DNA of 64,000 nucleotides, taken from the NCBI GenBank assembly GCA_015227615.1, contig JAALGZ010000034.1, positions 124,001 to 188,000 of the forward strand. The letters are read 5' to 3'. Within the stretch, counting starts at the first letter, position 1. Every line of letters begins with the position of its first letter. Position numbers and translations under genes: made by a program. Below, one piece after another: positions 18,234 to 63,707 of the stretch. The notes under the pieces were generated by a model that was not told the DNA's origin, searched no databases, and saw only the letters and a program-made list of their open reading frames with translations. Origin of the DNA: Labyrinthula sp. Ha. Its lineage: Eukaryota; Sar; Bigyra; Labyrinthulida; Labyrinthulaceae.

Positions 18234-18438
18234 TATTTCCTTTAAAATAATAGTTAGATATGGGAAACGTCTTAAAGGTTTTCTTTGCTTTCCTCTAAGG
18301 AGCGTTATATATATAGATATAATAGTTTGGTACTCGACATACATTGTTTTTTTTACCAAAGGGAGGCAAAACCACCTAAAGTTTAAAAGCAAGATAAAAT
18401 ACATACTTTTCTTCAAAAACAGGTTAAGAGCCTAAACA
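18234..18438 (+). repeat. 5' LTR of the copia element
   Basis: Matches 22364-22590 from TATTTCC onward, including GTTAGATATGGGAAACGTCT and the AAGAGCCTAA end. The gag start lies only a few bases downstream. The outer end is approximate. Confidence 0.75.
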
Positions 18439-18449
18439 ATATCCATGAC

Positions 18450-19290: not shown

Positions 19291-19309
19291 TCTTTCTCAA
19301 ACGTTTTCA

Positions 19310-20430: not shown

Positions 20431-20829
20431 TGATACCCCAAACACCATCCAGGTTGGATGGTGATGGACCTTACAACTCGAAGGATTTTTCCAACAGTTT
20501 CATTACTGTTAGATGACACTAAATTTTATGATGCAAATGATCCTCGAGAATTCACAGAAGTGATAGATGTAGACGCAACCGAGTCAACTAGAGAAAGAAA
20601 TATCTTGATTGAAAATAACGTGCCTTTTTCTGAAGAAACTGAGCAAGTAATTATTGAAAATATTCAAGAAAATATTGAAGAACCTCAAGAAAATATTCAG
20701 CAACTTGAAAAAGAAACTCCTGACACACCTTACTTAAATAGAAGCTTCAATATCTCTTTTGAAAATATCATCGAACACAGTCGAAGGAGAACTCAACAAG
20801 GAAATGTAGCTGCTGGCTCTGGAATTAAA

Positions 20830-22320: not shown

Positions 22321-22363
22321 TTAGGAATAATATTCTATGTAGTTCTATCTAACTACGGAGGAG

Positions 22364-22590
22364 TATTTCCTATAGAATAATAGTTAGATATGGGAAACGT
22401 CTTAGAGGTTTTCTTAGCTTTCCTCTAAGGAGCGTTATATATATAGTAGTTTGGTAGTCGACATATATGGTTTTATTTACCCAAGAGAGGCAAAACGACC
22501 TAAAGTTTAAAACTAAATAAAATACATACTTTTCTTCAAAAACAAATAAGACTACAAATATGTTTAAAAAAGAGCCTAATATTATGCTTG
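22364..22590 (+). repeat. 3' LTR of the copia element
   Basis: Second copy of the LTR, preceded by a short purine tract (GGAGGAG). It is about 90% identical to the 5' copy, with small length differences near its 3' end. The outer end is approximate. Confidence 0.75.
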
Positions 22591-28415: not shown

Positions 28416-28717
28416 TGTATCAATGTGAAGTTTACTATTTAAGTATTTCATAAGTAGTTTTAAATAAATATGATTGGGTAGATGCTACGAATCAATCTGG
28501 TAGATTTTGTGCCAGGATAGGCCATTGTGTGAATCAATTAAGGAAAAAACCAATAAAAAAGGCAATAAAAGGATAACATTAGAGTAGAGGCAAAGAGTCA
28601 ATCTAAGGACCGATCAGGAAACGAAATACATAGATACCTTGTAGGAAAAACTTATAGAACATCTTAAGAGCGCTAAGACTTGCACACTTTGAGGATTTAA
28701 GTACCCAAGGTGTTCCA
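28416..28717 (+). repeat. 5' LTR of gypsy element 1
   Basis: Begins TGTATCAATGTGAAG and ends GGTGTTCCA. It matches 37751-38052 over the full 302 bp with about five differences, all in the first third. Confidence 0.93.
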
Positions 28718-28729
28718 TTGAAATTTCAA
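28718..28729 (+). promoter_or_regulatory. Palindrome at the primer-binding position of element 1
   Basis: TTGAAATTTCAA directly follows the 5' LTR, where the minus-strand primer would pair. It lacks the TGG start expected for pairing with a tRNA 3' CCA end. The same TTGAA-NN-TTCAA form is found at this position in gypsy element 2. Confidence 0.5.
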
Positions 28730-28749
28730 TAATACGAGTCAAGAAGATG

Positions 28750-31350: not shown

Positions 31351-31569
31351 AGTCACGTTCACGCAGCCCATATAGAAGTAGAAGGCACGGGAACCATGGG
31401 TACTATGCATCACGAAGGGATGCCAGACGCTCTCCATATGGAAATAGATCCTTTAGAAGAAGTGGAGGAGCGGAGCGCGAAGGTCGCAGATCCTTTTTGG
31501 CGCTGCCAGCACCAGAAGACGAATAGAAAAAGAATGAGCATGGATTTGCGAGGCACCTGAATGTGTCGT

Positions 31570-34150
31570 TCAGGAGAGCCGCAAAGAGTGGGGTGTCCAT
31601 TCACCACACTGGATCGGGCGATCGCATCCCAAACGCGATCCTTGACAGCGGCGCGGATGAAAGCGTCGCTTCGTTATATAAGCACGCATGGATGATGGAT
31701 TCCATTGAAGATGTTAAAGAAAAGATCACGCTGGCGGATGGTACGACGGATCTCCGCGTAACTAAGGTGGGTTACGCAGATCTAGAGATGCGTGTAGGCG
31801 GGATCTGGAAACGTGACTTTCGCAGAGTGAAGGTATTCTTAGTCGATGATAAGAAGTGGAAGGAGTTGCTGGTTGGGGCCCCGGCGTTGGGGCAAGCGGG
31901 ATTAATGCCGTACCAAAACGCATAGGAAGTCGGCAGCGGGGCGGAAAGCGGTCCCGCGTGCCTGAAGGTTTGTAGAAGTTGTTTTGCTGATAGCGCCGAG
32001 GTTGTAAGTGCGCTGATGTCGAGGGAACTTGGATAACTTTCTGGGGTATATCAATTGGTCGTAGTTGAGGTGAGCTTAAATTTAATACTTAGTTCAATTC
32101 TTAACTTCGCGAAATATGGATATACTTTAGCTGAAACTGTGAAGATATTGGATGAAGACGCCGACGGAAACTTGGCGGTAGATTCATACTTTGTCTTTAC
32201 GAGGAACCTGGACCTGCAGAAAATAAAGCGCCAAGAGTCGAAAGATGTACAGTTTCTCACAGGTTTAAGGTTAGCTAGATTGCGCCTGGCGGCGATGTTA
32301 AGGCAACTAGGTGGTGGAAAACTGGAAGTACTTGGTGACATCCCAGCCGCCAGAGCGGCGTCAATCGACTTTAGTAGACGCTTGCGCGACGGGAATGCAG
32401 AAGGCATACCGTTTGACGAAACTATACATTTGAAGCAAAACAAGGATGTTGTTGATGAAGATAATTTAGAGCAGTTGATGCTTCCCGAAGGGAATGCGCT
32501 CTACCGGCCGGAGGCGGAAAGAGCGGAAATACGCGAAGCAATAGTGAAGATGGTAGAAGCTGCTGGCGAAGTTAACGAAAGCCAGCGCAACCAATTGAGG
32601 GAATTATGCTTTAAGTATGAAGTAGTTTTTGCGACGAACGCGTCGCAGATAGGAATTAGCCTTTTGGCGCCAATGGATGTTGTACCCATCCGGGGCGCGG
32701 AATTTAAGATGCCAGCGCCGCGGCCGTTAGGTCCAGGTAAGGCGGAATTTGTAAAGGAGAAATTAGACGGAATGGTTAAGAAAGGAATGGCGAGGAAGGT
32801 GCGACAGGCGATCTATGGATCGGTTGTTTTTGCCGTGCCCAACAAAAATAATACTTGGCGCATGGTGTTAGACTTAGTCGCGGTAATCAAGGTATTACAT
32901 AGAGATGTTAACATACTCCCTATACTGGAAATGCAGCTAGGCAACACAGCGCCGGCACGTTTCTATGGATGCTTAGACGTCGTTATCGGATTTGATCAAC
33001 TTGCGATTACGGATCGAGCTAAGAAGTACTTCAACCTTATGACAACTTACGGAGTATTTCAGTTGCAATTTGTGCCAATGGGATATCATTCGACTCCGGT
33101 ATTTTTTCACCAGCGCATGGTGGATCATATCGTGGCGGAAAACTATAATAAAGAAGGCAACGGAATCGTTCAATTGATTGACGATACGTTGATACACGCG
33201 AAGGACTTTAAGCGCTACATCAGGATTTTAGAAGATGTTTTGCGCAATCTGCGGAAATGGAAAGTGAGAATTAGCCCGACAAAATCAATATTGTTTACGA
33301 CGAGTATCGAATACTACGGAAGAATATTACAAAACGGCGGGTGGAATTTTTCGAAGAAGTACTATGAGAAGATTTTACTTGTCCCAAAGCCTGAATATGT
33401 ATACGAATTAGCTAAGCTTCTACGCTTGGTACAATGGCTAACATCGGCGGTTCCTGAAATGGTGGAACTCAGAGATAAGATCCTGCTTTTTACCCAAAAA
33501 TGAAGGGTAAGAAAAAGAAGTTACTAAAGGAAAAGAAGCTCATCTTTTGGAATAAAGACTTAGAGGCGACAAGTAAGCGCTTCACGCAGAAATTAGCGGA
33601 TGCCCCAAAAGCGCGGGTACAACATTACGACCAAAGTATGGATCTGATTCTGGTGACTGACGCGTCGGACAATTATCATAACGCCATCTTATTCCAGGCG
33701 CGCCAACAAGAACGCGGGAAAGACCTGATGAAAAAAAAAATTTATCCGATGATGTTTTTTAGCGGAAAATTTGACGCGATTCAACTTGTGTGGGGTATAT
33801 GTCATAAGGAACTATACCCTATAATTCGAACGTTTAATAAACTCTCATACTTGTTGCCGTTTCATCCGACGGCGGTGCAGGTATACACAGATCATCTCAA
33901 CTTGAAGGCAATATTACAAGGCGGGTCAAAGATCAACCATGGACATCTTAACCGCCTACAGCGCTGGATGGTAATACTACAGCATGTGCTGGTTGATATT
34001 CATCACATTGATGGTGATAGTAATATTTTTGCGGATATGCTTACGAGATGGGCGGCGCCGACAAATAATAACGGCAAAGCAGCTGTACGAATGGTAAAGC
34101 TGCAAATACGGGATATGGAAGGAGAAATACCCGTTCTACCGCGCGAATAA
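31570..34150 (+). pseudogene. Protease, reverse transcriptase and RNase H region of gypsy element 1
   Basis: An aspartic protease signature (ILDSGADESVA) lies near 31640. RT follows, with an LIDDTLIHAKD active-site segment near 33175. RNase H has an LVTDASD start near 33650 and VYTDHLNLKAIL near 33880. It is part of the broken element, and coordinates are rounded. Confidence 0.8.
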
Positions 34151-34849
34151 GCGCCTGAGAAGGGTGTCGGGAAAATGCCGACAGGAGACTGACGCTAAAA
34201 TAAAAGAATGGCTTTAGAAAGCAGTACTAGATGCTTTGTCAATATATACGGAAAGAGATGATTCGCTACTTGGTGATGAGGACCTGTATTTTAGGATTAG
34301 GAGGAACTTCGAAGATTGGATGCATGAACTCTTACAGCCGAAAAGAAGGAAATGGATAAAAGAAGTGAGTATAAACGTTACCCCTAAACACTTTATACAA
34401 CCGTCGGCAACAAATTGTCGGCAAATTGTTAGGAGAATTATGCGAAAATCGTTGCCGGGAAAGAATACGCCAGACCTTATGAAAGAGGTAGAGCGGCAAA
34501 TCAGAAAAGAATACTCGAAAGAGGAATGGAGGAAACTGACCGAGGATTATGCGACATGGCCAACCGAGGTACCGTCGGATGTTAGCGACACGAATAAGGA
34601 GCGCTACATTGAGATGGATACTTATTCGACGTAGGAAGACGACGATAACACGACGGCAAAAATAAGGAGCGTGACTGTGAGAGTCAACCACCTTAGGCCA
34701 AAACGACAAATGGAGAAGAAAATTTATGCGTCGCTAAGGTCGCTTGATAAATATAGGGAATCAGTATTCAACCCGTATTTTGAAGGTAACCGGGCGCCGC
34801 TAATGGAACCAGAAGTGATTGAGGTGCAGAAGAAGGAAATGATTACTAG

Positions 34850-35520
34850 AACATATAGAATTAAAAAGCTGTCGGGAAAGATTATTTTACCGGCTTCGCT
34901 CCTGGAGCGCCAGTTGGTTCATATACATTTAGCGAATAAACATGGTTCCCTCGAATCGGACTTAGCGGAAGCGGCTAGACTTGAGTGGAGAATTTCCGCC
35001 GCTATGGAACGCACACTGAGAGGAGACACATCGAGGAAAAAGATGGTTGAATTGATACGCGTATTTAGGGACAACTGCGTGCATTGTCGCAGGCTTCCTA
35101 AAGCAATCAAGACAACGTATAGTCTGGTTACGAGAGCTAGGCACCCGCGCGAAACTCTAGTCGCAGACTTTTTATATGTGAATAGAATAGGACACATTCT
35201 AGTATTAACAGATGCGTTTAGCAGATTTACTCAGTTGACGCATACGAAGGCTCCGGATACACAAGCGGTTATAGAGGTGCTTGACAGATTCGCGACGAAT
35301 TATAAGTTGGAAAAAGAGTTTACGCTAGTAACAGACCGCGGGAGTCATTTTGCGAATTCATTAATGTCAGTGTTGAGGAAAGAACTTCGATTTTCGCAAA
35401 GTTTCGCGGTTTCCTATATAAGCTGGACAAATGGAGAAGTCGAAGTTGTAAATAAAAAAGTACTGAATTTTCTGAAGAGTCTGGTCAGTGAATACAGGCT
35501 CAATGAGGATGAATAGCCGA
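34850..35520 (+). pseudogene. Integrase region of gypsy element 1
   Basis: An HHCC zinc-binding part with a CVHCRRLP knuckle near 35080 is followed by the RNase H-like core, with the first Asp in VADFLYVNRIGH and the second in LVTDRGSHFANS. It is part of the broken element, and coordinates are rounded. Confidence 0.8.
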
Positions 35521-36099
35521 AGATATTAAATAAGATACAAGGCGCAATGAATGAATTGCCTGTACCTTCGTGAAAAATACCCGGTTGCAAAAATGCGCCA
35601 ACGGCGTACGAGTTGTTTTTGTATGTGAACCCAGAGCGCCAGTATATTGAACCAGCGGGACTTCCGCCTTTAGTGGAAAGAATCCGTAAAGGCGCTAGTA
35701 TGTTGGTTAGTATTGATGCCGATGTGTTGTATAAACTAAGCGCGACTTTTAGGATACGCTTGGAGGAATATGAGAAAAAAGTCGCGAAGTACGTTGAGTT
35801 TCAGAAGATGTTGAATAACAGGAGGAAGAAGACCGCAGTGGACCCAGCGCTCCTTCAATATAATGTGGGGGACTGGTGTCTGCTGTCCTCGAAAGGAACC
35901 CTCAAAGACCGTGACAAGTTGGCGCATGAGTGGTCGGGCCCAGTGCAGATAATGGAGACAGTATCTAAAAATGTTTATAAGATTAAGGCATCGGACGGCA
36001 AAGCAATGGAGGTACACGGAAGTGGGTTATACTTCTACGAACCTAGCGGCTTTGTTCCGTCGGAGGCGTTAAGAAACGTACATGTCGGAAATTTTAAAC

Positions 36100-36220
36100 A
36101 TTTGGAAGTCGCGGAATTTGGGGATGTCAAGTATGATCCACATTTGGCGGAATATATAATAGAGGTCTGATGGAGAGGCTTCCGCTCGGAGGACAACACT
36201 TGGGAACCGATCCAAACAAT
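36100..36220 (+). pseudogene. Chromodomain-like stretch of gypsy element 1
   Basis: A WRGF...NTWEP signature, as in the C-terminal chromodomain of chromovirus integrases, follows an SH3-like integrase tail (VGDWCLL...GPVQI). Chromodomains steer insertion toward particular chromatin. Coordinates are rounded. Confidence 0.6.
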
Positions 36221-37620
36221 GTATGAAGACGTTCGAAATACGTTACTCGAGCATCTAACCAAAAAGATGCGCCGCCCGAATCAAGATAAAATGCGCAAAA
36301 GGGCTAAGCGCGCGTTTATTACTACAGGCCACGCGATTGACAGGGTGATAAGGCGTGTCCCTGGAATTAACGCTTGTCGCAGACACTTGGATAAAGTGGA
36401 AATACGACCGATTGTTGAGCGGAAACATGTTGCGCCATCAAGAGGTTGGACAAAAGAGGAGAAGCAAGAATTAAGGAAATTAGTTCTAAAGCTTGGTGTG
36501 GATCGGTAAGACAAATATCAGTTGTACTTACCACACAAGACCAAAGCGATGATGAAGTACTATATCCAGCAGCGACTTGGCCGGCTGGATCTTGAAGAGA
36601 TAGGGGGAGAATGTTGGGATATCGAAAAGGCGCGGAAATCGAGCAAACTGATTAGCCGCGCCGATTTTCGGTGTACGAGACGCTTTGCGGATTGTGAGCA
36701 AGCTTTGGCGCTCGCGAATGAGGAAATAGCGAAAGAATTCGCGCCAAAGTTCACGGAAAGTTTGCGTGGATATAGAAAGAAGGCGGCAAACTATGCAAGG
36801 AAGGTGGCGCTCATTTGTAAGAAGCTAGAGCAGTACCCCAAGTTGATAAAGACTATGGTACTGGCATTTAAAAAGGAAGAGGAAGTGGAGTGGGAAGTCA
36901 GCGGGTTCCGAGTTAGGTATGAACGGCACGCCGAACTTGCACGAACCCCTATGGTTTTGACGAATCACCCGCACGAAATTGAGGAAAGCGCGAAATGGCG
37001 CTACTTGGTGTCATTCGAAGGAGAAGTGCAGTTTACTATGATTCAAAAGGCCGGGCGCATATTTGATGTGGACTTCGAGGAAGACGGAATAGCTATGAGG
37101 AGCTGTATATTACCTCCTGAGAAGATGTGGTATAATATCATTCCCTACAGCAATGAGTGGCGCCGCGGAGTACAAGGTTTGGTCACGGTGGATCTGCTAC
37201 TGGCCGACCCGCCGGGGGGTGAACACCAAGTTGAAGCAGGAGACGAAGGATTCAGGGACTTCGGAATCACGTAACTACAACCACGCTTTGTGGTGATATG
37301 GATTTCGCAACGAGAACTGGAGCGCGTTTTTCGATTTATGAAAAGCGCGGGTTATGATATATTCCATACGTGGACATGGATAAAGATGACGCACCGCGGA
37401 AAAATATGGGGATCGCTGGGGCGATTATTCCAGCGATCACATGAGGTGCTGTATTTCTTCAAAAAGCGCGATGCGCTAGGAGATTCGGAGATGAGAGCCA
37501 TTCAGGAACGGAAAGTGATTTTTGCTGACCGAAGTGACGGAAGAATGAAGCCGCTAGTTGCGCTGGAATGGATAAAGCGCGCATTTGGAAAAGGCGCAAT
37601 ACTGAAGGAGGTATTTGCGT
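36220..37620 (+). pseudogene. Myb/SANT-like plus MT-A70-like methyltransferase region in gypsy element 1
   Basis: Between the chromodomain-like stretch and the purine tract lies about 1.4 kb of extra coding sequence. It starts with a Myb/SANT-like segment (GWTKEEKQELRKLVLKLGV) and LPHKTKAMMKYYIQQRLGRL. The later part holds VDLLLADPP near 37190, a WISQRELERVFRFMKSAGYDIFHTWTWIK-type strand-helix-strand near 37300, then GSLGRLFQRSHEVLYFFKKRD. That order (DPP motif, then an 'iW' strand and GY...W.K, then 'E.ll...') is characteristic of MT-A70 (METTL3/METTL14/METTL4/MTA1) N6-adenine methyltransferases. The same arrangement occurs in gypsy element 2. The region shares the interruptions of its element. 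Confidence 0.7.
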
Positions 37621-37737
37621 GAACGAGCGGTTTACGTAAAGGCTGGTTACAATTGGGAGAACGAGTGAACCCGTGTGGGCCTAGGGAGAGTTATGAAATA
37701 CAAATAGTGCTTAGACAGAATGGAGTCACGCCATTAT

Positions 37738-37750
37738 GGGAAGAGGGGGA
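37738..37750 (+). promoter_or_regulatory. Polypurine tract of gypsy element 1
   Basis: GGGAAGAGGGGGA lies directly before the 3' LTR, the expected plus-strand primer site. Confidence 0.8.
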
Positions 37751-38052
37751 TGTATCAATGTGAAGTTTAGTATTTAAGTATTTCATAAGTAGCTTTAAAT
37801 AAATATGATTGGGTAGATGATACGAATCAAATTGGTAGATTTTGTGCCAGGATAGGCCATTGTGTGAATCAATTAAGGAAAAAACCAATAAAAAAGGCAA
37901 TAAAAGGATAACATTAGAGTAGAGGCAAAGAGTCAATCTAAGGACCGATCAGGAAACGAAATACATAGATACCTTGTAGGAAAAACTTATAGAACATCTT
38001 AAGAGCGCTAAGACTTGCACACTTTGAGGATTTAAGTACCCAAGGTGTTCCA
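37751..38052 (+). repeat. 3' LTR of gypsy element 1
   Basis: 302 bp, TG...CA, about 98% identical to the 5' LTR. It is followed by CTTT, the same four bases that precede the 5' LTR. Confidence 0.93.
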
Positions 38053-38747: not shown

Positions 38748-41059
38748 TCAGGGCTTTAAAAAGTAAAGTACATGAGAGCTATAAAGGTTTTCCACTGGTG
38801 TGTGAACACCAAAAGGAAAAAAATATTTTTCTATATCATGAAACTCTGTAAGAGGAGTAGATATCTTATTTGGCGAGCTCTCCAAAACAAAAAGACAAAC
38901 ATACAAAGTAAATAAAAGAGGATCCCTTTCAAAAACAAGCTCAATAGAAATTCTCCAATGTCTTCCACACAAACTTTTACCACCAATGTCTTCTAGATTG
39001 CAGGTAGTACCAAGAAGTGAGTTTTCAGCACGTTCTTTCGAGGTTGACTTCAAGTTATGAAATGGATGCAGTTCAAAACTCTTCATAAACCTTAATTTAA
39101 CTTTATTTGTATCAACGTGATGAATCCAACCAAACAAACTTTCCTCTACTAATATTGGTTGAAAAGGTAATGACGGAGTAGACTCTGGTCTTGGTATCCC
39201 ATCTAGCTTAATTTTCACGCACCCAGCACCTAGAGGTAGATGTGGGTTTATAGTAAAAGAATCCGAAGTTAACTCAATAAAAAAAGAGGAAACAACTAAA
39301 AAATAAAACTTTGAGATAAAAGGGGTGCAACTATGACCCCAAATCATATCCAAAAGTGAGAAAATACTCGGTTGATTTGTTTCTTCAACAGATTTAAAAC
39401 ACCAATTTCCAGAAACAAAATCAGTGATAACTGAAAAGGATGAGTTATTATTTTGACTAGTTGAAACTTCGGAGTTTTGAGCTAGTTGTTCTGTAAGTTT
39501 TATAAATCCAGCAGTTTTTGAAGCTCTTCTTGCAACTGTTACAAGTCTACGCCAAGTATTTATATTCTTTGAAGCAATTTGAAAAGATTCTTTGTCCATT
39601 AGAGGGGTTCTCAAAACTAAAGATATTAATAGTTTTGCAGTATTATGTGTAGGTAAAAAAGCTGTATCTAGCAAGAATATTCCTAAGTCTGAGAAACTAT
39701 TCATTAGGGCTTCAAACCTAAATTCTACTCCTTTAATTCTATCTTTTCCGCATATTAGTCCTCGCGAGATTAAATGACCGGTAACGTGTAAATCAGGACA
39801 TAATTGGTATTGAATGAGCTTCTCTGTTGTTAAATCTTTCTCCACTTCTGAACAAAGAAAATATTCAAAAGTTTCTAAATCCACCTCAAGTGTTTGAAAT
39901 AGTGTGGCCCGCTGTGAATGCAAAAAGTTTTTAAATCCAGAAACATCATTTCTGCATTTAAAAGCATTTGATACATTTTTTATTAAATTTATTGGTTGGT
40001 CTTCAAGCAATAAAGTTCTGCCCCTATTCAAAATAAATAATTCCAATTCTTCAAGTTCCTGCTCAAGAGTTTCAAATGTTGTTGAACCTAGACGTGCCTG
40101 CAAAAATTTTCTTAAGTTTACTAGTTTTTTACCTGACTCTGTATCATCCATATTAAACAAAGATAAATTAGAGTCTTCTTTATTAAATTCTTTATCTGGT
40201 AAATGAAGTGAACAAAGCCCATGAAAACTTAAATATAACCAGGAATATTTAATATGTTTTATATTTTGTAGAAAAAAATAAGTAACAAATTCATTCATTC
40301 TCCTTTGATATGTATTTTCTCTTCTATACTGTAAATAGTTTCGCTTATATTTTGCCAAAGAAGATGGAGTTATTAAATCAATAACACATTGACTATGAAA
40401 GAGTGCTCTATATTTTTCTGTTTCCTCTACTAGATCTGGAATTAAACCAGTTAAATATTTTTGAGACGGCTTTAAAATTTTTCGTCTTGAGTATATTTTA
40501 AACTTTGGAGAAAATGCTATTTTTATACAAAATATTTTATCTTCAGATTCTTCGATGTCAGTGAATATACGAACTCTAAACGCATGAGCATAATCACTTG
40601 TTGTTTTGTTCGATTGCCATTGATAATTCCATCCAATAAATTGTCTATTAAAAACTAAAATCAAGTTTTGCTTCTGTGGATCATTTGGATCTATTTCAAA
40701 CCTTCCTGGTATCAAAACGTTAAGCGGCTTTTTGCTATTACGTTCGGAGTTTTTCATTTCCGAAAGTGAATAAAATGATTCTTCAGATGTTTCACTGTTA
40801 TATGTTTTGTGGTTAGGAAAAGTGTAAAAATCACCCCACGCTTTTAGTTTATGATAACCTTCTGAAAAGTTAGGAAAGGTAATCCGTACAGAAACCGCAT
40901 TGCCACAAAATCCTTGTGCACAATGCCCATTTGGCCTGCATTCAGGAAAACATCTAGATACTAAAACAAGAATAAAATATACCGTAAGTTTTTGACAGCT
41001 GAAGACTTGTTGTTTCTCTGATATACCTCTTTAAATGTATTTAAGAATTCGATATTCAT
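38748..41059 (-). CDS. Unknown 760-residue protein, copy A
   Basis: CDS is complement(join(38748..40953, 40983..41059)) with one inferred 29-nt intron. The 669 codons from the ATG at 40757 are certain as an open frame. Upstream of that ATG the frame stays open, and through a mini-intron it reaches an ATG at 41059, adding 91 residues. I recognise no family. Visible features are a CX3CX5CX4C cluster near residues 27-42, a conserved core around residues 420-535 that includes SFSDLGIFLLDTAFLPTH and INTWRRLVTVARRASKTAGF, and an internal repeat in the middle (FLQARLGSTTFETLEQELEELELFI against FLHSQRATLFQTLEVDLETFEYFL). There is no membrane segment or clear signal peptide. A second copy lies at 49052-51363. 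The upstream exon is less sure than the main frame. Confidence 0.65.
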
Positions 41060-49051: not shown

Positions 49052-51363
49052 CTATGCTCTCTTGAATCGAAGTACTTGATAACCCCAGAGGTTTGACATT
49101 GGAGTCTGAGCATTTAAAGGTTGAAAATATCTTGATACTTCCGGAATTTTGCATAAAGGGGCTGATATGTCATACGGAGAGGTTTCAAAAACAAAAAGAG
49201 TTACATTTGACGTAAAAGAAAGAGAACCCTTCTCGAAAACCAGTTCAAGACAGAGTCGACCATGTCTTCCACAGAAACTTTTCACATCTACATCTTCAAT
49301 ATTACAATGGGTACCAAGAAAAGATATTTCTGATCGTTCTCTTAATGTTGATTTCAAGTTGTGAAAGGGATGTAATTCAAAACATAGAATAAATCTGAGC
49401 TTCACTTGATAAGAGTCAATGTGTTCAATCCAACCCATAAAGCTTTCTCCAACATTAATTGGTTTAAAAGGAAGTGAAGGAAATACTGGTGGTCTAGGTA
49501 CACCATCTAACCTAATTTTCATACACCCAATACCTAAGGGAAGATCCGGATTCACAACAAAAGAGTCTGTAGTCAATTTAATAGAGAAAAAAGAAACTAT
49601 TGCAAGATAATATCTTGAGATATAAGGAGTACAACTATTCCCCCAAAGCATATCTAACACTGAAAAAATACTCGGTTGAGTCTTATCTTGTACACCTTCA
49701 AAACACCAATTTCCAGATATAAAGTCAGTGAGAACTGAAAAGGATGAGTTATAATTTTGAATAGTTGAAACTTCAGAGTTTTGAGCTAGTTGATGGGCAA
49801 GTTTTATAAATCCAGCAGTTTTTGAAGCTCTTCTTGCAACTGTTACAAGTCTACGCCAAGTATTTATATTCTTTGAAGCAACCCGAAAAGATTCTTTGTC
49901 CATTAAAGGGGTTCTCAAAACTAAAGACATTAATAGTTTTGCAGTATAATGTGTAGGTAAGAAAGCTGTATCTAGCAAGAATATTCCTAAGTCTGAGAAA
50001 CTATTCATTAGGGCTTCAAACCTAAATTCTACTCCTTTATTTCTATCTTTTCTGCATATTAGTCCTCGCGAGATTGAATGACCGGTAAGGTGTAAATCAG
50101 GACACAGTTGATATTGATTTAATTTTTTTGCCGATAAATCTTTTTCAACTTCCAAGCAAAGAAAATATTCAAAGGTTTCTAAATCAACTTCCAAGTTCTG
50201 AAACAATGTTGAACGCTGAGAATTTAAAAACTTTTCCAAACTAGAAATAGTAGTTCTCTTTTGAAAAGAGTTAGAAACATTTTGCAATAAACTTTTTGGC
50301 ATTTGAGCAACTACGATTTTATTTCCTTGTGCCAGAATAAACTGCTCTAACTTTTCAAGATCACATTCTAGTGTTTCAAAAGCCTGCTTAGTAAGATAAG
50401 AGTGGAGGAAGTTTCTTAAGTTGTAAAGTTTTGGTCCTGATTCTGTAATTTGTAGCTTAAATAAAGATAAATTCGGGTATTCTTGAATAAATTCTTCATC
50501 TGGTAAGTGTAAAGAACAAAGCCCATGACAACTTAAATACAACCAAGGATGTCTAGTATTTTCCATATTTGCAAGGCAAAAATTCAAAATAAAAGTAGTT
50601 ATTCTCCTTTGATATGTATTTTCCCTTCTATATTGCAAATAATTTTCTTTATACTTACTTAAGGCAGTTGGAGTTATTAAATCAATAACACATTGACTAT
50701 GAAAAAAATATTTATACTTTTTGATTTCTTCAAGAAGTTGGGAAGATCTATCAATTATATATTTTTGAGGCGGCTTTCCGATTTTTCGTCTTGAATATAT
50801 TTTAAACTTTGGAGAAAATGCTGTTTTTATACAAAATATTTTATCTTCAGATTCTTCGATGTCAGTGAATATACGAACTCTAAACGCATGAGCATAATCA
50901 CTTGTTGTTTTGTTCGATTGCCATTGATAATTCCATCCAATAAATTGTCTATTAAAAACTAAAATCAAGTTTTGCTTCTGTGGATCATTTGGATCTATTT
51001 CAAACCTTCCTGGTATCAAAACGTTAAGCGGCTTTTTGCTATTACGTTCGGAGTTTTTCATTTCCGAAAGTGAATAAAATGATTCTTCAGATGTTTCACT
51101 GTTATATGTTTTGTGGTTAGGAAAAGTGTAAAAATCACCCCACGCTTTTAGTTTATGATAACCTTCTGAAAAGTTAGGAAAGGTAATCCGTACAGAAACC
51201 GCATTGCCACAAAATCCTTGTGCACAATGCCCATTTGGCCTGCATTCAGGAAAACATCTAGATACTAAAACAAGAATAAAATATACCGTAAGTTTTTGAC
51301 AGCTGAAGACTTGTTGTTTCTCTGATATACCTCTTTAAATGTATTTAAGAATTCGATATTCAT
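49052..51363 (-). CDS. Unknown 760-residue protein, copy B
   Basis: CDS is complement(join(49052..51257, 51287..51363)), the same length and structure as copy A at 38748-41059, at an offset of exactly 10304 bp. Identity is patchy. The first 97 residues of the 669-codon frame are nearly identical to copy A and about 230 residues are clearly diverged (I estimate 60% identity). A block of about 115 residues (NQYQLCPDLHLTGH to TAGFIKL) is again nearly identical, and the C-terminal third is diverged. This pattern fits gene conversion between two copies or selection for difference in some parts. Function is unknown. Confidence 0.65.
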
Positions 51364-56652: not shown

Positions 56653-56857
56653 GATCGTTATTCTCCGGTGTAGAATAACTTTCTTCTGACCCGTAAATTT
56701 ACATCTCTCTTTATTTATAAGTTTCATATGTTGTTTGTCTGTAATCGTGATTGATCGTATTAACGCTTAATATATGTCAGTATAACAGAACTATGTCAAC
56801 GCCCAAAAGTATCCTATTTTACATAAAGTAGTATTATTAGTATAAATGATACGACTA
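56653..56857 (-). repeat. 3' LTR of gypsy element 2
   Basis: 205 bp, about 90% identical to 63503-63707. The outer end adjoins GCCTT. Confidence 0.85.
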
Positions 56858-56874
56858 TTGCTCCCAAGATGTTT

Positions 56875-58377
56875 TTACAAAGAAAATTTCTTAAATTGAG
56901 ATATCCTTGAAGCACCATGATTGCTCAAAGCAAGTTTCTCATCAAATTCATTACCAACTGTCGCACAACGCGGTCTTGAATTCCAAACACGATCAAAAAC
57001 TTTTAAAAATCTGGCTTCAATAGAAAAAACATCCTCCAATATTTCATGAATATCCAGAGGTTTCCGAGATTGTTTTCTTCTCTCAGCGAAAATAACATCC
57101 AAGCCGAAAAGTGAACGAACTTGTTTAGCTGACGTCTCACCAATAGGAATCATGAAACACGTTTCTTTTGCTCGACTCATAAAAGGTCCAATAGATGGCA
57201 AAAGATTCCCACTACTACTAGTCTTGACCCATGAGATTGTCTGAGCAATGGAATACCCCTTGTCATGCAAGTACTGTCTCAACCTCTGCTCATGGGCTTG
57301 GATACACCATATGAACGCAAATCCATTATTAACAATTTTCAGAATTCTATCAAAAGGTATTTCATCAAACTCCATTTGTTCATAGTCTAAGCTCGGGTCT
57401 CTCACCGGAAGATTGTTCGCCAGTTTCCAAGGTGGATCGATAACTACTGCTTCGAAATAACAGTCATTAGTTCTCAAAATATCGAAAAAATCTGATTCAT
57501 TAGAAAGTTCAGCATAAATAGGTAAACTTCCATAGCTAAAAAAAGGCGTCATCCAAGACTTTGATTTAAACTTGAAAATAATCTGGTTCTCTTCTTTGTC
57601 CCATTTAACTTCACACTTTTGATCCTCAAACTTGTATTCCACCGGGACCAAAAACAAAGGATCACAGAAGACTTGATACTGCCACTCTTCTACATCTACA
57701 GAGCAATGTTTCGAAAAACGTTTGAATAAAACTTCTGATTCTTCATCTGATTTGACCATAGCTTCTAATCTAAATAATTCCTTCGCTACATCACTAAAGT
57801 TAATAGTTGGCCGAAAACGTGCAAGATCTTTACCATCCCTAACTGATCGTAAAAATAACAACTTATCCTTCCTAAGTTCAGGTTGATCCTCACGTCTAAA
57901 ATAGAATATATCTTCAATCATCGCCTTCGCTTTATTCCTCGTGTACCTAAACAAATTAAAAAATCTTCTGGTCAGCGATTCAACTCGGTTAATGATCTTG
58001 CTTCTTTCCACATGGTATGGAACTCCGTAGCGTTTGAAGTTGTCTTTAGCTACTCTCCAGCTATCTAAGCGAAGTGTTGAATACTCCATGATGCTCTGCT
58101 TACCCAATAATCGTTGTGTCTGGGTATATAGCTGCTGTGTCGTTTTGTAAGGCAAATAGTTTCCAGAGTGTATTTTCGAATAATTTCCGACTCCAAATAC
58201 CTGGATGCACTGACGTAGGATATCTTTCTCAACTGGAAGCCACTTCTGGCTCAATGATGGGGTTTCAGCCAGGAATTCTACTGCATCTAATCTTAGAATT
58301 ACCTCATCCTCTCTCCAGGTTGACTTCGCGACCTCAATTGCTGCATCCCTTAGCACTTTCTTGTAATCTCCATCCAT
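56875..58377 (-). CDS. MT-A70 family adenine N6-methyltransferase with Myb/SANT-like domain (retroelement cargo)
   Basis: One open frame of 500 codons inside gypsy element 2, next to its 3' LTR. Residues about 46-92 look like a Myb/SANT or homeobox-like DNA-binding domain (WLPVEKDILRQCIQVFGVGNY, then LPYKTTQQLYTQTQRLLG). Residues about 305-480 are the MT-A70 domain: FEAVVIDPPW with the catalytic DPPW at 314-317, a GFAFIWCIQAHEQRLRQYL strand-helix, GYSIAQTISWVK, a KETCFMIPIG strand, and the VIFAERRKQSRKPLDIHEILEDVF segment that binds SAM in this family. MT-A70 enzymes methylate adenine N6 in RNA (METTL3) or DNA (ciliate MTA1, METTL4). Coupling to a DNA-binding domain favours DNA as substrate, by analogy with MTA1 and its partner p1; this is inference. 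It follows the chromodomain-like stretch, as in element 1. Confidence 0.82.
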   Translation of the reverse strand: MDGDYKKVLRDAAIEVAKSTWREDEVILRLDAVEFLAETPSLSQKWLPVEKDILRQCIQVFGVGNYSKIHSGNYLPYKTTQQLYTQTQRLLGKQSIMEYSTLRLDSWRVAKDNFKRYGVPYHVERSKIINRVESLTRRFFNLFRYTRNKAKAMIEDIFYFRREDQPELRKDKLLFLRSVRDGKDLARFRPTINFSDVAKELFRLEAMVKSDEESEVLFKRFSKHCSVDVEEWQYQVFCDPLFLVPVEYKFEDQKCEVKWDKEENQIIFKFKSKSWMTPFFSYGSLPIYAELSNESDFFDILRTNDCYFEAVVIDPPWKLANNLPVRDPSLDYEQMEFDEIPFDRILKIVNNGFAFIWCIQAHEQRLRQYLHDKGYSIAQTISWVKTSSSGNLLPSIGPFMSRAKETCFMIPIGETSAKQVRSLFGLDVIFAERRKQSRKPLDIHEILEDVFSIEARFLKVFDRVWNSRPRCATVGNEFDEKLALSNHGASRISQFKKFSL

Positions 58378-58379
58378 TA

Positions 58380-58750
58380 GCAGGAAGTTTTCTACCGTGT
58401 CTCTTACATCAACAGCTAGTATCTCTAAAGGTTCCCAAGTATCTTCATGTCATTCAAATCCAAGCCACGAAACTAATAACAAACAGCCTTCCGATGTTAA
58501 CTTAATATCCTTGATCTCTTCGACTTCTAACACTCCATAATCTTGTCTAAAGTGAGATATAACTTCCGGAGCTGGTTTGTAGCTTGGACCTTCGTACCAC
58601 CATAATCTTGAAGCATGTACTATCTTTTCATCTCCTAACAAGCTACGAACCAAGTAAACATTTGCAGATATAGTCTTCACTATAAGGAATGATCCCTGCC
58701 ATTTCAATTTATGTTTCAGCTTCGATCTGTGTGTATTGACACTACTTACC
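58380..58750 (-). pseudogene. Integrase tail and chromodomain-like stretch of gypsy element 2
   Basis: An SH3-like integrase tail (LKWQGSFLIVKTISANVYLVRSL) is followed by LEVEEIKDIKL and LLLVSWLGFE, resembling the start and middle of a chromodomain. It is part of the broken element, and coordinates are rounded. Confidence 0.6.
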
Positions 58751-58839
58751 ATAACCCAGTCTCCGAGATTGTACTGGAGAACTCCTCTGGAAAATCTTTC
58801 ATTTTATCGACCATTCTTCTTTTTTCTTTAAGTAGCTAC

Positions 58840-59700
58840 AAAAGAATAGACTGCTGATTTTTTTCTTCAATAAACTTTTTGATCTCTCTCGCGGCAGCAA
58901 CTATATTAGACGGGTTTTTTGCTCCTATAGTTTTTCTTGTACCAACTGGATTAATAAATAAATGACGCTGAATAAGAAAATCTTCATCATTATTTTGCTC
59001 CTCTTGACTAAGTCCTAAATATAATTCATTAGGCGTCATGTTCATGTTTCTTCTTGTTTTCGACATATTTATCACCGTCTGAACATAAGCTAAAACTTCT
59101 GGCCACGATCCACTAGACAAATGCAGCTCGCTTGCTACCGATCTGAGGATTCTCAAGATGCGAACATTAGAGCTTTCTATTCCTCCATTAGTCCAGGGGG
59201 CGTATGAGACAGTATAGGAGTGGCTATACCTAAGCCACTGTTCCATCTCCTGTAAAAGAATATTAGCGAAATGAGACCCCTTGTCGGTAATCAATAAGAA
59301 TGAAGGTCTCAGCTCCAGTCAAGAATGCCAATCTAATATAGAAAGCAGTACCACCTTTGCCATGCATTTCTTGCAATATCTTAAGGAAATCTTCCTTGTA
59401 GCGTCGTCCATAAGAACCAAAACATAACCCTCTGTATCAATGTAGAGGAAATCTGCCCGAAGGATCGCACCTCGCTAATCCCCCAATGGCGTCTCATGAT
59501 GGGGTGTGCGTATTAGGGCAGGGATTCTAACACAATGAATACATCTTCTGTGAAGCTCTTTCAATATCTTTTCCACGTAAAAACTATCTGGCAGTTTAAT
59601 TTTATACCTCTTCTTCAATTCTTTAAGTTCCCTAGAAAGAGAAGGGTGCCCCATGTAAATCTGAGTATGAATAATAATGTTCTGGCTCAAGCTTTATGGC
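58840..59700 (-). pseudogene. Integrase region of gypsy element 2
   Basis: The zinc-binding part has HRRCIHCVRIP near 59530. The core shows MITDKGSHFANILL and SYAPWTNGGIESSNVRILR, which are standard gypsy integrase segments. It is part of the broken element, and coordinates are rounded. Confidence 0.8.
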
Positions 59701-59959
59701 ATAACAATAAGCGACTCATTCCTCTTGAGTTCCCTCAGCTCTGGTTCTAGTTTCTTTTGCTCCCTAAATATTTCATCATCCGCCAGTCTTTTCCATTTGC
59801 CTTAATAAAATGAATTCATAATGCTTAACATCTCTACATCCATCTTCTGTAAGTAAGCGTTAAGAGCTGCGCTATTCTCGACTCTCCTTCTGCCCACTCT
59901 TGTCGCATCTAGCGAGATGACTTCCATAGATCGAAGGATCAATCTTGCATTCTCTCTCA

Positions 59960-61790
59960 CTGATTCTGGGTTCCCCATCTTGAGATGATGTCTGTGAGTA
60001 TATTGTACTCATCCCTGATGTGCTCAAAAATAATATTGCTGTCCTGAAAGATCAATTCCCAGTGACTCATCCGCCCAATGTATGATCGCTTCTTGTTACA
60101 ATTCGGCCTAATAAGATAGATAAGGTTCCGGTGATCCATGTAGGCTTTACCGGTGTCGGATGCCCCAGAATCATATAATCCGCACGCTTCAGCAAAATAA
60201 GTATCGGGTAGATCTGTTTCTGTGAGATAGGTCACTTGATTTGACCTCCCATGAATGATCCACTCAGTAAAACAACAGGTAAGTGTCTTCGGTAATTTAT
60301 CTGCTTACTGTCCTCCTTCACTTCCGTTTGTATTAGAAATCCTGACCAATAACCATCTGAGGCATCTGTAAAGATGCTAAGCCTTAGCTCAGGGTTATAA
60401 TGGTACAGGTTCCTCTTCATGGCTTTCAATATTTCTTTCTTAAATCTCTCCCAGTTATCGTTCAGCTCATCTGTCCATCCAATTGGAATCCTCAAGCGCT
60501 TCAGTTTCGACTGTTTGATCCCAAGCTTTACGGCCTTCGAAAACTTGTCCCTTAATTCTGCCAATTTGTGTATTGTCGTGCATAGCCAATTGAAGAAGTG
60601 GAGGACAGACGCCAGTTCATGCTTGAATGCCGGTCTGGACATCTTCAGTATCGATCTGTAATAACTTTTTTCAAAGGAATATGTACCACCTTCTAACCAT
60701 CTACCACAATATTTTATCCTCTTGGCCACTATGATGCATTTCTTTAGACTCAATCGGTCTGCTCGTTTCTCAAAAGAACTTAACACTTCTGCTAGCATCT
60801 TGTTCAAATCTGGGAGGTTCTCTGCATAGAAAAGAACGTCATCCACCCATTGGATCAAGCCACAAGAAAGTCTGTCTAGCTCCATGTATCCCAGTGGTTC
60901 TAAAACTTCTCTAAAAACACGATCCTGAAAATAAAGGGGCTATTCTTCCAGCCCTGAACCGTTCCCTGGAATTCGTAACTAGCACCCCAAGGTGTAGCCA
61001 TGTTAAAGAATTTCTTGGATTCCTCTTCTATAGGTAAGTAATCAAAACCAGACATCACATCTAAACAGGCGAAATATCTCGCCCTGCTTGTTCTCTGCAA
61101 TTGCTGTTCCAGAAAAGGAAGGTTCAAAGGAGTCCGTATAGTGAAGTCGTTAATTCTTCTCATGTCCACTACTAACCTAAATTGCTTTGCAGGATCATCT
61201 GACTTCTTCGGGACTATGTGTATCGGAACAGAGTAAACGGGGTCCGATACACGCTTCAGGATCCTGGTTTCAACCAGCTCGTCGATCCTATTCTTGAGCC
61301 ATATCTCTTCCTTCTGACCAATGGGCCTAGGCTTCACAAATATGCCTGGCGGTGCGTTAGGTACCAGGTGACAAGGTACAGGAGTGAGACGACTAACGTT
61401 ACCAGTTCCTTGATGCAGTCCAAAGGAAGATATGTGAGTAAGGCAGGTGTCCAATAGCATTTTACGTTCCGCTTCCGTGATCACCTTCGACTCCTTCAGC
61501 TGCTTCTCGAGATAACTCTTCATCTGTTTCTGTTCCTCTTTGACTTCAAGGTTAGGACCATCCCCTCCAAAATATGTTATACTGGGGACGTCTTCTCCCA
61601 TCATTCCTGAATACGGACTACTAAGCTGCACCGGTGCATCCGATGGTAACTGTAAGATGCTAGCAGCTTCATCCATTGGTACCGTATCGCCAGAGGATGT
61701 GAAATCTATTTCTTTTGCAATGAAGTTTATATCTGAAGTGTTAAGGACCAGCTTTTCCTTCTGTTTGTTCGAGAAGTAAATATTACCCTT
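59960..61790 (-). pseudogene. Reverse transcriptase and RNase H region of gypsy element 2
   Basis: RT motifs include RLVVDMRRINDFT, YFACLDVMSGFDYLPI and IQWVDDVLFYAENL. RNase H follows with LSIFTDASDGYWSGFL. It is part of the broken element, and coordinates are rounded. Confidence 0.85.
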
Positions 61791-61949
61791 CAAGATGGAT
61801 TTTATTTAATCAGGATCGACATCGTAAAACTTCGATATATCCATGTGCTTCAAGTTAAATTTTATATCTTCTGTAGGGAGTGAGATAGAATTCCTTAACA
61901 GGGACATTTTCGCAGGGTTCTCATTTCCTTTGGTGCCTATATTTTAGTT

Positions 61950-62480
61950 TCTTTGTTGACTTAAATGGTTATCTCTTCTCGCCATTGAATTCGGTGCAAG
62001 TAAGTTCCTCTGCCAGCTTGGCATCTTCCTCAGTGACTGCTCTGGAAGCGCACCTACATCAAATAAAGTTTCTTTTCCAATATAAAGTTCCGAAAAACTA
62101 CTCTCATCATCAACCATGAATATCCGAACCCTTCCAAGATAAACCGGCTCATCATCATCGATTTTCACTCTTATCTCCGCATCTCCAATAAGAGCAATGG
62201 GAATGGGCTCATATTTCGCTAGCTGAACACTAAGGTTAGATTGTACCGGATGAAGCATGCAGCAAAACCTCTTGTGGTGTCTGACGTTTTCTATCGTCTT
62301 GGCTGCCCCACTGTCTAGAATACCTTTAACCTTAAGCCAGTTCGGACCATCCATCAGTTCCAGAAACTCCACTGGATCAGCTCTTGGCTGCATAACCGGC
62401 ATCTTCCTTTGAGCCATCGTTCTCCTGTTGGATTGCCTTCTCGTTGAACGCGGGTTAGTATTTTGGCCACTAGCTTGCAC
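61950..62480 (-). pseudogene. Aspartic protease region of gypsy element 2
   Basis: A retropepsin-like fold with VKGILDSGAAKTIENV, then strands ending in FMVDDESSFSELYIGKETLF. A basic N-terminal extension is present. It is part of the broken element, and coordinates are rounded. Confidence 0.7.
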
Positions 62481-62486
62481 ATAGGA

Positions 62487-63374
62487 TTATCTCTGCGGTG
62501 TAGACATCGATCCCACTTGTCTCTGCTCCGGGCAATTAGCTATAAAATGATCTGTTGCTCCACAATTAAAGCATTTGTTAATATTGTCGAGCTTCGTTTC
62601 CAGTCTGTTTAGCGATAAAATAACTCTCTCTACCGGGTTCTCGGATATTAGTGTAAGGTTCTGGCTAGTGGGTGATGGTGATGGCGTGTGATCAAGGTTA
62701 GCTGAGTGGTTTGCAGTGTGTAAAGTAAGTGCACTGCCATTTCTTTTTTTTCTTATCTCTGCATCCTCAATAGGTGTCAATGACTCCAGGCTCTGCGCGA
62801 AATCGTCTAAAGTTGATACTTTTGGAAAGAGATCCAAATAATTAGTATCATTTATCTGAAAGCAACCAGGTAGCTTCTTAACTGTATTCTTAATGACCCC
62901 CTTGTGCGATTGAGGATTAAGGCTTCTTTCTGGTCCAAGTATCTCCTTCGCTTGCACAATAAAGTGTCTAATAGATTCGATACCACTTTCAGTGTTCGTG
63001 GGCCACTTGAGTTCACTTGAAAGGCGTCCGATGCTGTGGGCGAATAAGCTCTCTGCTCTCATTTTCTCAATTGACTCCAGATGCTTGAGGACCTCACTTG
63101 TGTTATTCAAATCTATCTCATGCAACTGGATCTTGTATGAAACTGTGCCTCCTAGCCACTCCGCTATTTCAAGTGAAGGGTCCTTCTGACGAGCACGCTT
63201 GAATCTGATGATGGAATTCAATAGCGGTTCACGATCAAGAGTAGTAAGGATTTCCAATCTAGGGGGGCGAATAGATGGAGATCCAAGTCTACGTAGTGCT
63301 TCGACAAACTCAGCATTGATTGCCTCAGGAGTGTTATCTGTCCTCTTCGCGGTCTTATCGGCTGTGGGCGTCAT
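62487..63374 (-). pseudogene. Gag region of gypsy element 2
   Basis: A 295-codon open frame beginning about 130 bp inside the 5' LTR. It has a helical capsid-like part and a C-terminal CX2CX4HX4C zinc knuckle (CFNCGATDHFIANC). This part appears whole although the element as a whole is broken. Confidence 0.75.
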
Positions 63375-63489
63375 AGCTTCTTGTTAAATATACTTCTTGA
63401 TTCCGTCTTCAAAATAATACGTCCGCGGCTTATTGTCAGGTCCTAGTTCGTAAAAAGTTGTTTTCTTGGGTGAATCCAGTTGTCACGAC

Positions 63490-63501
63490 TTGAAGCTTCA
63501 A
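63490..63501 (-). promoter_or_regulatory. Palindrome at the primer-binding position of element 2
   Basis: TTGAAGCTTCAA lies one base inside the 5' LTR. It has the same TTGAA-NN-TTCAA form as at 28718-28729 in element 1, and no TGG typical of a tRNA primer site. Confidence 0.5.
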
Positions 63502-63502
63502 T

Positions 63503-63707
63503 AGTCGTTATTCTCCGGTTTAGAATAACTTTCTTCTGGCCAGTAAATTTATATCTCTCTTTATTTTTAAGTTTCATATGTCGTTCGTCTCTAATCGTGA
63601 TTGGTCGTATTGACGCTTAATATATATCAGTTTAACAGAACTATGTCAACGCCCAAAAGTAGCCTATTTTACATAACGTAGTATTACTAGTATATATAAT
63701 ACTACTA
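63503..63707 (-). repeat. 5' LTR of gypsy element 2
   Basis: 205 bp. The right end is defined by the GCCTT duplication at 63708-63712. It aligns without gaps to 56653-56857, with about 21 differences. Confidence 0.85.

Follow-up and report, generated by a model that had tools for sequence, protein, structure and literature searches.

Results

Two elements in the window (the whole 64,000-nucleotide stretch analysed) are, on the homology and order of their coding domains, members of an old and diverse clade of Ty3/gypsy-type LTR retrotransposons that bear a chromodomain, and we consider it fairly probable that this clade gained relatives of p1 (AMTP1) and of MTA1/AMT1 as a fused polyprotein tail and that DNA adenine is thereby methylated. 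What can be read directly from the DNA is the architecture, its repetition, the co-inheritance with the reverse transcriptase (RT), the purifying selection and the p1/MT-A70 homology; the module would most likely write 6mA on element or target DNA.

Element 2, a Ty3/gypsy-type LTR element, spans 56655-63707 on the minus strand, between a 5' LTR (63505..63707; 203 nt, 91% identical to the 3' LTR) and a 3' LTR (56655..56857) separated by 17 bp from the MT-A70 ORF's stop codon. On the same strand it carries a gag-like ORF with a CCHC zinc knuckle (62487..63374; PF00098, E 4e-5), a protease-bearing ORF (61944..62480) recognised only by its motif ILDSGA near 62300, and a frameshifted RT plus RNase H with the active-site motif QWVDD (59981..61274), whose PF00078 matches (E 7e-13 and 3e-5) are split over two ORFs and to which tblastn aligns the RT-RNase H of the relative L024. 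There follow integrase fragments that do not share a single frame (58588..59576; tblastn with the L024 integrase, E 9e-32 and 7e-11; weak matches only in Pfam) and a chromodomain with approximate limits (58386..58527), placed by alignment to that of P0002 and interrupted by an in-frame stop at 58450-58452. The 3' end of the pol frame is a 500-aa ORF (56875..58377) with a predicted p1-like (Myb/homeobox-like) DNA-binding domain (58018..58257; PDB 7f4l_E, p1 of the MTA1 complex, E 7e-12) and an MT-A70 domain with DPPW (56947..57456; PF05063, E 4e-20, ORF residues 308-477), so that the first-pass annotation correctly located an MT-A70 domain inside the LTRs, 3' of integrase and chromodomain. Its description of a 500-residue protein holds for the domains, but the start of this ORF exists because the stop at 58450-58452 severs the chromodomain from the same frame, and relatives carry one long ORF. 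Against PDB, the MT-A70 domain matched MTA1 (7f4r_A, E 3e-25) and METTL3 (E 4e-13), and the best-matching folds for a structure model of the protein (mean pLDDT 59, usable only in the p1-like and MT cores) were those of Tetrahymena MTA1.

The upstream domain had been described as DNA-binding-like and Myb/SANT. It is of a DNA-binding type, but its Pfam Myb match (PF00249, E 0.003) is weak and below the Pfam cut-off, and the better match over the same stretch is p1, the sole good match of the window copy among all PDB chains (next p2, 0.001, and TRF2, 0.06); in L024 the p1 match reaches E 5e-18 and extends past the Myb fold. Since PDB searches return p1 of MTA1c, we rejected a generic Myb DNA-binding domain; by homology, this domain is a specific counterpart of p1 (AMTP1), the DNA-binding subunit of the MTA1/AMT1 6mA complex, with residues K44/K46/K47 only partly kept in alignments inspected by eye. 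This identity points to DNA 6mA rather than RNA m6A, and together with the MTA1-like MT-A70 domain it indicates that the element fuses relatives of two subunits of a DNA 6mA writer. The Tetrahymena complex is reported to need p1 and p2 for activity, with p1 aiding DNA binding, and nearly loses its activity upon the MTA1 D209A mutation (PMC9852454).

Element 1, likewise a Ty3/gypsy-type LTR element, occupies 28416-38052 on the plus strand, with a 5' LTR at 28416..28717 (302 nt, 98.3% LTR identity, 4-bp target-site duplication) paired with a 3' LTR at 37751..38052. It encodes a frameshifted RT plus RNase H with the motif QLIDD (32784..34045; tblastn E 2e-52) and an integrase (34812..36053; tblastn E 3e-39), followed by a decayed module: a chromodomain-like stretch aligned to P0002 (approximately 36100..36230, with an in-frame stop), a p1-like stretch aligned to L029 (approximately 36432..36600, with an in-frame stop) and, also by alignment to L029, an MT-A70 remnant (37180..37673, start approximate) with two in-frame stops and DPPG in place of DPPW. 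The genome search recovered this remnant as C82:161242-161676 (E 2e-22), and the segment 36186-37673, from the chromodomain end through the MT-A70 part, aligns with L029 at 27.9% identity (E 4e-50) with three in-frame stops, a fourth lying just upstream in the chromodomain. Both window elements are thus broken, and the same module does sit at the same place in each, as had been proposed. The proposal that the two are far apart was also borne out, as element 1 pairs with L029 in the RT tree (100/100) and in the MT-A70 trees, whereas the RT of element 2 falls outside that pair and its MT-A70 domain groups with P0002/P0003. Neither copy groups with host AMT1; both fall among element lineages, contrary to two separate host-gene insertions.

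In relatives with intact frames, MT-A70 is the C-terminal domain of a single polyprotein that ends just before the 3' LTR. Pfam scans of three such ORFs (2,278-2,358 aa) revealed RT, RNase H and MT-A70 along with integrase and chromodomain, the chromodomains scoring just to well below the Pfam cut-off (E 2e-5 in L024, 9e-5 in L028, 0.005 in L012) and the L012 integrase below it; the P0002 chromodomain lies above the cut-off (PF00385, E 6e-9). The domain order is gag-like, RT, RNase H, integrase, chromodomain, p1, in one clade a protease, and MT-A70, and thus includes the order RT, RNase H, integrase of Ty3/gypsy LTR retrotransposons. Each polyprotein has one MT-A70 stretch in Pfam scans, and hence no MTA9-like partner within it, and in the four Pfam-scanned ORFs MT-A70 is the sole methyltransferase, with no C5-cytosine methyltransferase domain. 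A search of the genome for LTR elements with MT-A70 ahead of the 3' LTR found an LTR pair around the coding region at 19 of the 20 fetched top-scoring MT-A70 places, these 19 belonging to a few related lineages, as well as in both window elements, the remaining place being the stand-alone host AMT1. LTR identity among relatives reaches 99.8%, and exact 4-5 bp target-site duplications flank 6 of 21 elements (one of the two in the window), with edges taken from BLAST only and the L011 repeat pair being wrong.

Across the 50.8 Mb of genome searched we counted at least 266 MT-A70 places, and at least 182 of these have an RT or p1 match listed alongside. A listed MT-A70 match lies 2.5-7 kb downstream of 91 of the 98 scored RT matches and 1.97-2.49 kb downstream of 84/150 integrase matches. 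Other copies lacking the module would have spoken against a shared retroelement module, but absence is not the rule: seven of the 98 RT matches lack a listed MT-A70 in the counting window; two (C69:1731 and C100:672) are at contig starts with the downstream part missing; one (C117:95344) is seemingly split by an L011 element, with p1/MT-A70 matches beyond it (C117:106004 and 107240); three more (at C122, C132 and C70) show a p1-like match but no MT-A70 among the matches listed; and C1:5637 has neither among them. RT and MT-A70 distances are correlated (r 0.90 over 20 rows and 0.83 over 17 rows; 0/5000 permutations), and dN/dS in three families is 0.25, 0.15 and 0.12 for MT-A70, 0.03, 0.14 and 0.14 for p1, and 0.10, 0.08 and 0.08 for RT, values that place the MT-A70 module under purifying selection. 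Co-location at fixed spacing, correlated RT/MT histories and purifying selection therefore support the module as a shared, standard and inherited part of these elements, as the first-pass annotation had suspected, and led us to reject chance or separate host-gene insertions into the two window elements.

The position of the module after integrase and chromodomain would also suit a tether that brings integrase to chromatin or DNA by binding promoters rich in 6mA or the 6mA complex of the host, a role in which catalysis would be secondary or lost. DPPW occurs in 15 of 25 element rows, including window element 2, and another motif in 10/25; DPAW, DAPW or DLPF replaces DPPW/DPPY in 7/25, a count that rises to eight with element 1 and its DPPG, and inactivity of some lineages is therefore possible; the p1 dN/dS of 0.03 in one family is the lowest of eight segments. 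Against this stand the catalytic Asp in 25/25 rows, the SAM-contact residues (Arg357 in 24/25, Asn360 in 23/25, Ser332 in 20/25) and DPPW/DPPY in 17/25, and selection on the whole methyltransferase is hardly expected of a mere tether, which we consequently regard as unlikely.

We place at the same low level the idea that different elements captured host AMT1 several times independently. Its case comes from the long deep branches of the MT-A70 tree and from the rejection of a TE-only clade (p 0.029) in AU tests with bacteria included. The same tests rejected TE+METTL3 (p 0.047) and did not reject TE+AMT1 (p 0.38); when bacterial rows are part of the tree, the L024/L012 lineage and L033 fall with METTL3 and bacteria (85/94), a point that weighs against the favoured reading. 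Deep nodes are weak in this tree, from which METTL14, METTL4 and MTA9 are absent, and once the seven bacterial rows are removed a branch sets the TE rows apart from all others, though with weak support (39/19, 58% of bootstraps). Against repeated capture speak the order p1 then MT-A70 in 12/12 rows of alignment A2, with the chromodomain tail ahead of both by eye, and the RT/MT correlation.

Less probable still is that the module writes m6A on RNA, marking the element's genomic RNA so that it is packaged or translated or escapes RNA silencing. METTL3 also belongs to MT-A70, gag-pol precursors encounter RNA, and the L024 type scores nearly equally with MTA1 and METTL3. However, the linked p1 homologue is related to a DNA-binding subunit, MTA1 outscores METTL3 in 24/25 rows, and a METTL3 query of the genome found no METTL3, its best match being host AMT1; these results make a METTL3-type RNA writer unlikely. 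The P-[TVS]-R-G segment of AMT1, not found in METTL3, is present in 23/25 element rows. Chance host-gene insertion or an assembly artefact, for which no observation spoke, is refuted by copy number, with RT or p1 adjoining MT-A70 at fixed spacing in well over 100 places (chance expectation, less than one co-location) and single ORFs spanning the module.

Discussion

Under the favoured reading, a DNA 6mA writer carried by the retrotransposon, the p1-MT-A70 part would be released by processing or act as an integrase fusion, p1 binding DNA and MT-A70 methylating adenine, probably at ApT, with the catalytically dead partner (MTA9/AMT7) supplied by the host or replaced by homodimerisation. The target could be either the cDNA of the element, methylated before it integrates or directly afterwards, or the chromatin where it inserts. 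As 6mA in eukaryotes with AMT1 is reported to peak close to gene starts and to mark active genes, without enrichment in TEs (PMC12695648), fresh insertions would gain the host's 'active' mark, countering silencing and nucleosome occupancy. Our data suggest that the elements may tag DNA with this active-gene mark; the fuller scenario, in which a one-chain p1-MTA1 writer tied to integrase and chromodomain stamps the mark on insertions and evades silencing by mimicking active genes, is one we put forward tentatively. If it is true, hundreds of mobile writer copies would also feed the host 6mA landscape.

Chromoviruses are chromodomain Ty3/gypsy elements, and the elements described here share with them an integrase followed by a chromodomain, and differ in p1 and MT-A70 beyond the chromodomain, a WxDD RT active site and, in one clade, a downstream protease. 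Captured DNA methyltransferases are described in the retrotransposons KnitGypsy-Dnmt3, SymbioLINE-Dnmt and SymbioDIRS-Dnmt3, of which KnitGypsy is likewise a gypsy element with its DNMT under purifying selection, but these enzymes are cytosine DNMTs of a different family, and that article mentions neither MT-A70 nor 6mA (PMC5890265). DIRS1-like elements carry in their pol an adenine-type methyltransferase domain (PMC3266345), termed Dam-like N6A in PMC5890265; there, however, a bacterial Dam-like domain resides in tyrosine-recombinase elements, whereas here a eukaryotic-type MT-A70 with p1 resides in LTR elements that also have integrase and chromodomain. The MTA1c/AMT1 complex (MTA1, MTA9, p1, p2) similarly combines p1 with an MTA1-type MT-A70 bearing the catalytic Asp, but as a tetramer of separate host proteins and not as p1 plus a single MT-A70 in one retrotransposon polyprotein (PMC9852454).

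When the window ORF and A2 were searched against proteins, scoring the best 7995 and 7996 word-sharing candidates, four EukProt proteins apparently from the same species were retrieved, including one RT/RNase H protein; A2 additionally retrieved a prokaryote-type ParB/MT-A70 protein. In prokaryote genomes 20 loci matched, and these in the MT part only; viral contigs gave no match with A2 and one distant match, again to the MT part only, with A3. Among the matches listed from open-licence full-text literature, none reported a retrotransposon with MT-A70. We know of no earlier mobile element with a eukaryotic-type 6mA writer; an older review of MT-A70 evolution by Iyer and Aravind may mention transposon-linked copies. 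According to a 2025 survey covering 231 eukaryotic genomes and transcriptomes, the MT-A70 families are relatively static (PMC12695648); the opposite holds here, with MT-A70 multiplied within one genome, inside TEs and with a DNA-binding cofactor. For biochemistry, the elements would provide a single-chain p1-MTA1 of natural origin, and they make the question of whether a TE writes its own active mark directly testable in one protist.

The host genome also has stand-alone AMT1 and p1 genes. Host AMT1 (L016) matches MTA1 at E 4e-73 versus METTL3 at 9e-36, and its closest named relatives are from Mucochytrium and Hondaea, so the host is probably a labyrinthulomycete. Source databases label these relatives m6A methyltransferase or METTL3, yet L016 fits MTA1 far better.

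Gypsy-type elements with a p1–MT-A70 tail recur across the genome

A Pfam search of the genome (50.84 Mb, 153 contigs) for MT-A70 scored the best 150 of 354 candidates, all 150 above the curated cut-off, with open frames of up to 2,660 aa and of at least 1,500 aa at 36 of the 150 places (hand count). When the 20 best-scoring places were taken as 9-10 kb loci, 19 had an LTR pair and matched segments of loci L024 or L012 in a single order (gag-like, RT, RNase H, integrase, chromodomain, p1-containing, MT-A70), in support of the shared retroelement module suggested by the first-pass annotation, although these 19 represent a few related lineages and not 19 independent cases. The remaining locus, L016, is a stand-alone gene. 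One ORF of 2,278-2,358 aa holds everything in L024, L026, L028 (DPPW) and L012 (DPAW), the gag label in these ORFs denoting a CCHC motif recognized by eye, with no Pfam gag listing; their LTRs are 93-99.8% alike, and the ORF ends ~12 bases (L012) or ~28 bases (L024) from the LTR match.

When first counted, 104 of these 150 MT-A70 places had an RT or p1-like match upstream, against 0.65 and 0.46 expected by chance; the number rose to 131 once p1 matches of further searches were included. The union of four genome searches holds at least 266 distinct MT-A70 places, at least 182 of them with RT or p1 listed upstream. Conversely, MT-A70 lies 2.5-7 kb downstream of 91/98 RT matches (best 98 of 650 candidates), showing that copies without the module, which had been named as evidence against a shared one, are not the rule. 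Among integrase-core matches (best 150 of 549 candidates), 84 have MT-A70 1.97-2.49 kb downstream; the 66 without it could belong to different kinds of element, or to members with an MT-A70 outside the matches listed. In 13 divergent copies initially known from the 3' end alone, RT was located in all 13, in 8 by a position guessed from spacing alone.

In one clade (L024, L012, L009, L023, L033 and L034) a motif resembling a protease (DSGA, with weak matches in Pfam) follows p1 and precedes MT-A70, which places it downstream of integrase; in both window elements a DSGA motif is found upstream of RT. The difference may reflect relocation of a domain within gypsy elements.

Both window elements are damaged copies

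Element 2 (56655-63707, minus strand), whose 203-nt LTRs are 91% alike, encodes MT-A70 with DPPW in its 3' ORF (Pfam E 4e-20), together with a weak Pfam Myb match. The 500-residue protein reported earlier does exist as a frame, but it starts where it does only because a stop at 58450-58452 interrupts the chromodomain. Element 1 (28416-38052; LTRs 98.3% alike, 4-bp TSD) has the same domain order, as first described, in decayed form: its p1-like and MT-A70 stretches (36186-37673) contain three in-frame stops and DPPG, and a fourth stop sits in the chromodomain. While its LTRs are young, identity to the element at L029 is 28% in the module versus 57% in RT, as if the module had decayed before the element's last move.

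The module resembles two components of a DNA-6mA writer

Against all PDB chains, the Myb-like region of L024 matched p1 of the Tetrahymena MTA1 complex (MTA1c) over 140 residues (E 5e-18), the next different protein having E 1; the match extends beyond the Myb fold, and a generic Myb domain was rejected on these PDB searches. The DNA-binding-like domain noted in element 2 likewise matched p1 (E 7e-12), then p2 (0.001) and telomere factor TRF2 (0.06). In the reverse direction, a Tetrahymena p1 segment retrieved two stand-alone host genes first (L042/L043; G000:C1:1284467, E 9e-31, and G000:C100:135979, E 5e-28), followed by elements including the window copy (E 8e-12). Passages of PMC9852454 describe MTA1 and MTA9 as devoid of a nucleic-acid-binding domain, activity as requiring p1 and p2, and p1 as aiding DNA binding; in a fungal review (PMC13297926), the P1 subunit of MTA1c from Rhizopus is described as Myb-like and DNA-binding.

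The MT-A70 domain scored higher with MTA1 than with METTL3 in 24/25 element rows (the exception, L024, is a near tie at 109.5 versus 110.6 bits), and the P-[TVS]-R-G segment of AMT1 (MTA1) occurs in 23/25, being absent from both window copies. An AlphaFold model of the element 2 protein (mean pLDDT 59, cores mostly 70-90) retrieved MTA1 first (E 3e-15), with METTL3 not far off (7e-13). L016 is the host AMT1 (MTA1 E 4e-73 versus METTL3 9e-36; closest named relatives Mucochytrium and Hondaea) and also came first with a METTL3 query, which revealed no METTL3 among the best 150 of 343 candidates; AMT1 and p1 are both present in the genome. Taken together, p1 homology and MTA1 preference indicate that the element joins relatives of two proteins from one pathway, that of the DNA-6mA writer.

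The motif Asp is kept in 25/25 rows (15 DPPW, 2 DPPY, 5 DPAW, 1 DAPW, 1 DLPF, 1 DPPG), and residues assigned to SAM contact in the relevant part of PMC9852454 are largely retained (Ser332 in 20, Arg357 in 24, Asn360 in 23). Judged by these residues, catalytic competence seems likely for most rows but may be lacking in some.

Selection and inheritance of the module

Nei-Gojobori dN/dS, summed over pairs within families and including decayed copies, which should push ratios up, was 0.25 (MT), 0.03 (p1) and 0.10 (RT) in the L024 family (4 copies), 0.15, 0.14 and 0.08 in the L012 family (10 copies), and 0.12, 0.14 and 0.08 in the L009 family (4 copies); in comparisons of the L012 with the L009 family, synonymous sites were saturated and yielded no ratio. 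The within-family ratios show clear purifying selection on both p1 and MT-A70, in DPAW families too. In the L012 family the MT synonymous difference is 0.18, about half that of other domains (0.30-0.35), which could reflect gene conversion or an additional constraint close to the 3' LTR.

RT and MT-A70 trees of 20 elements have their main groups in common, apart from small conflicts within two of them, and their deep nodes are weak. RT and MT distances are correlated (r 0.90; r 0.83 for 17 elements after dropping three near relatives; neither attained in 5000 permutations), so the module has been passed down with the element within lineages. Separate host-gene insertions into the two window elements, the other objection raised at first pass, were rejected in view of these correlated distances and the pairing of element 1 and L029 in both trees.

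As to one capture or several, the MT domain is too short to decide. In a tree with AMT1 and METTL3 rows plus a single row of prokaryote type, one branch separates the elements from the rest (support 39/19, 58% of bootstraps). Once seven bacterial rows were added, and element 1 and the row of prokaryote type omitted, AU tests rejected a TE-only clade (p 0.029) and TE+METTL3 (p 0.047) but not TE+AMT1 (p 0.38), long branches being at play in these trees. The usual RT active-site form is Y/FxDD; 19/20 elements have WxDD and element 1 has LIDD (window regions 60232-60885 and 32055-33503). This unusual WxDD and the common p1–MT-A70 order argue for descent of the elements from a common ancestor.

Possible role of the module

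The tail position, beside integrase and chromodomain, suggests that the module could be brought to the pre-integration complex or to the site of insertion. Passages of PMC12695648 place 6mA of AMT1-bearing eukaryotes at active genes, with no enrichment in TEs; we infer that 6mA written on the cDNA of the element or on its flanks would label new copies as active. Element-borne methyltransferases are already known, as cytosine methyltransferases (described in part of PMC5890265) and as Dam-like domains in DIRS elements (sections of PMC3266345 and PMC5890265), but here the enzyme is a putative MT-A70 writer fused with a p1-like cofactor domain. In open-licence full-text literature we found no report of an MT-A70 writer in a retrotransposon, least of all of a fused writer and cofactor.

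Other features of the window

A copia-like LTR element recognized by eye at 18234-22446 (83-nt repeat, 95%), in which no MT-A70 was noticed, provides a natural comparison for 6mA mapping. Two 669-aa ORFs lie at 38748-40757 and 49052-51061, in DNA segments 77-79% alike, and a 1558-aa ORF at 248-4924 encodes a C-type lectin domain and long PT repeats.
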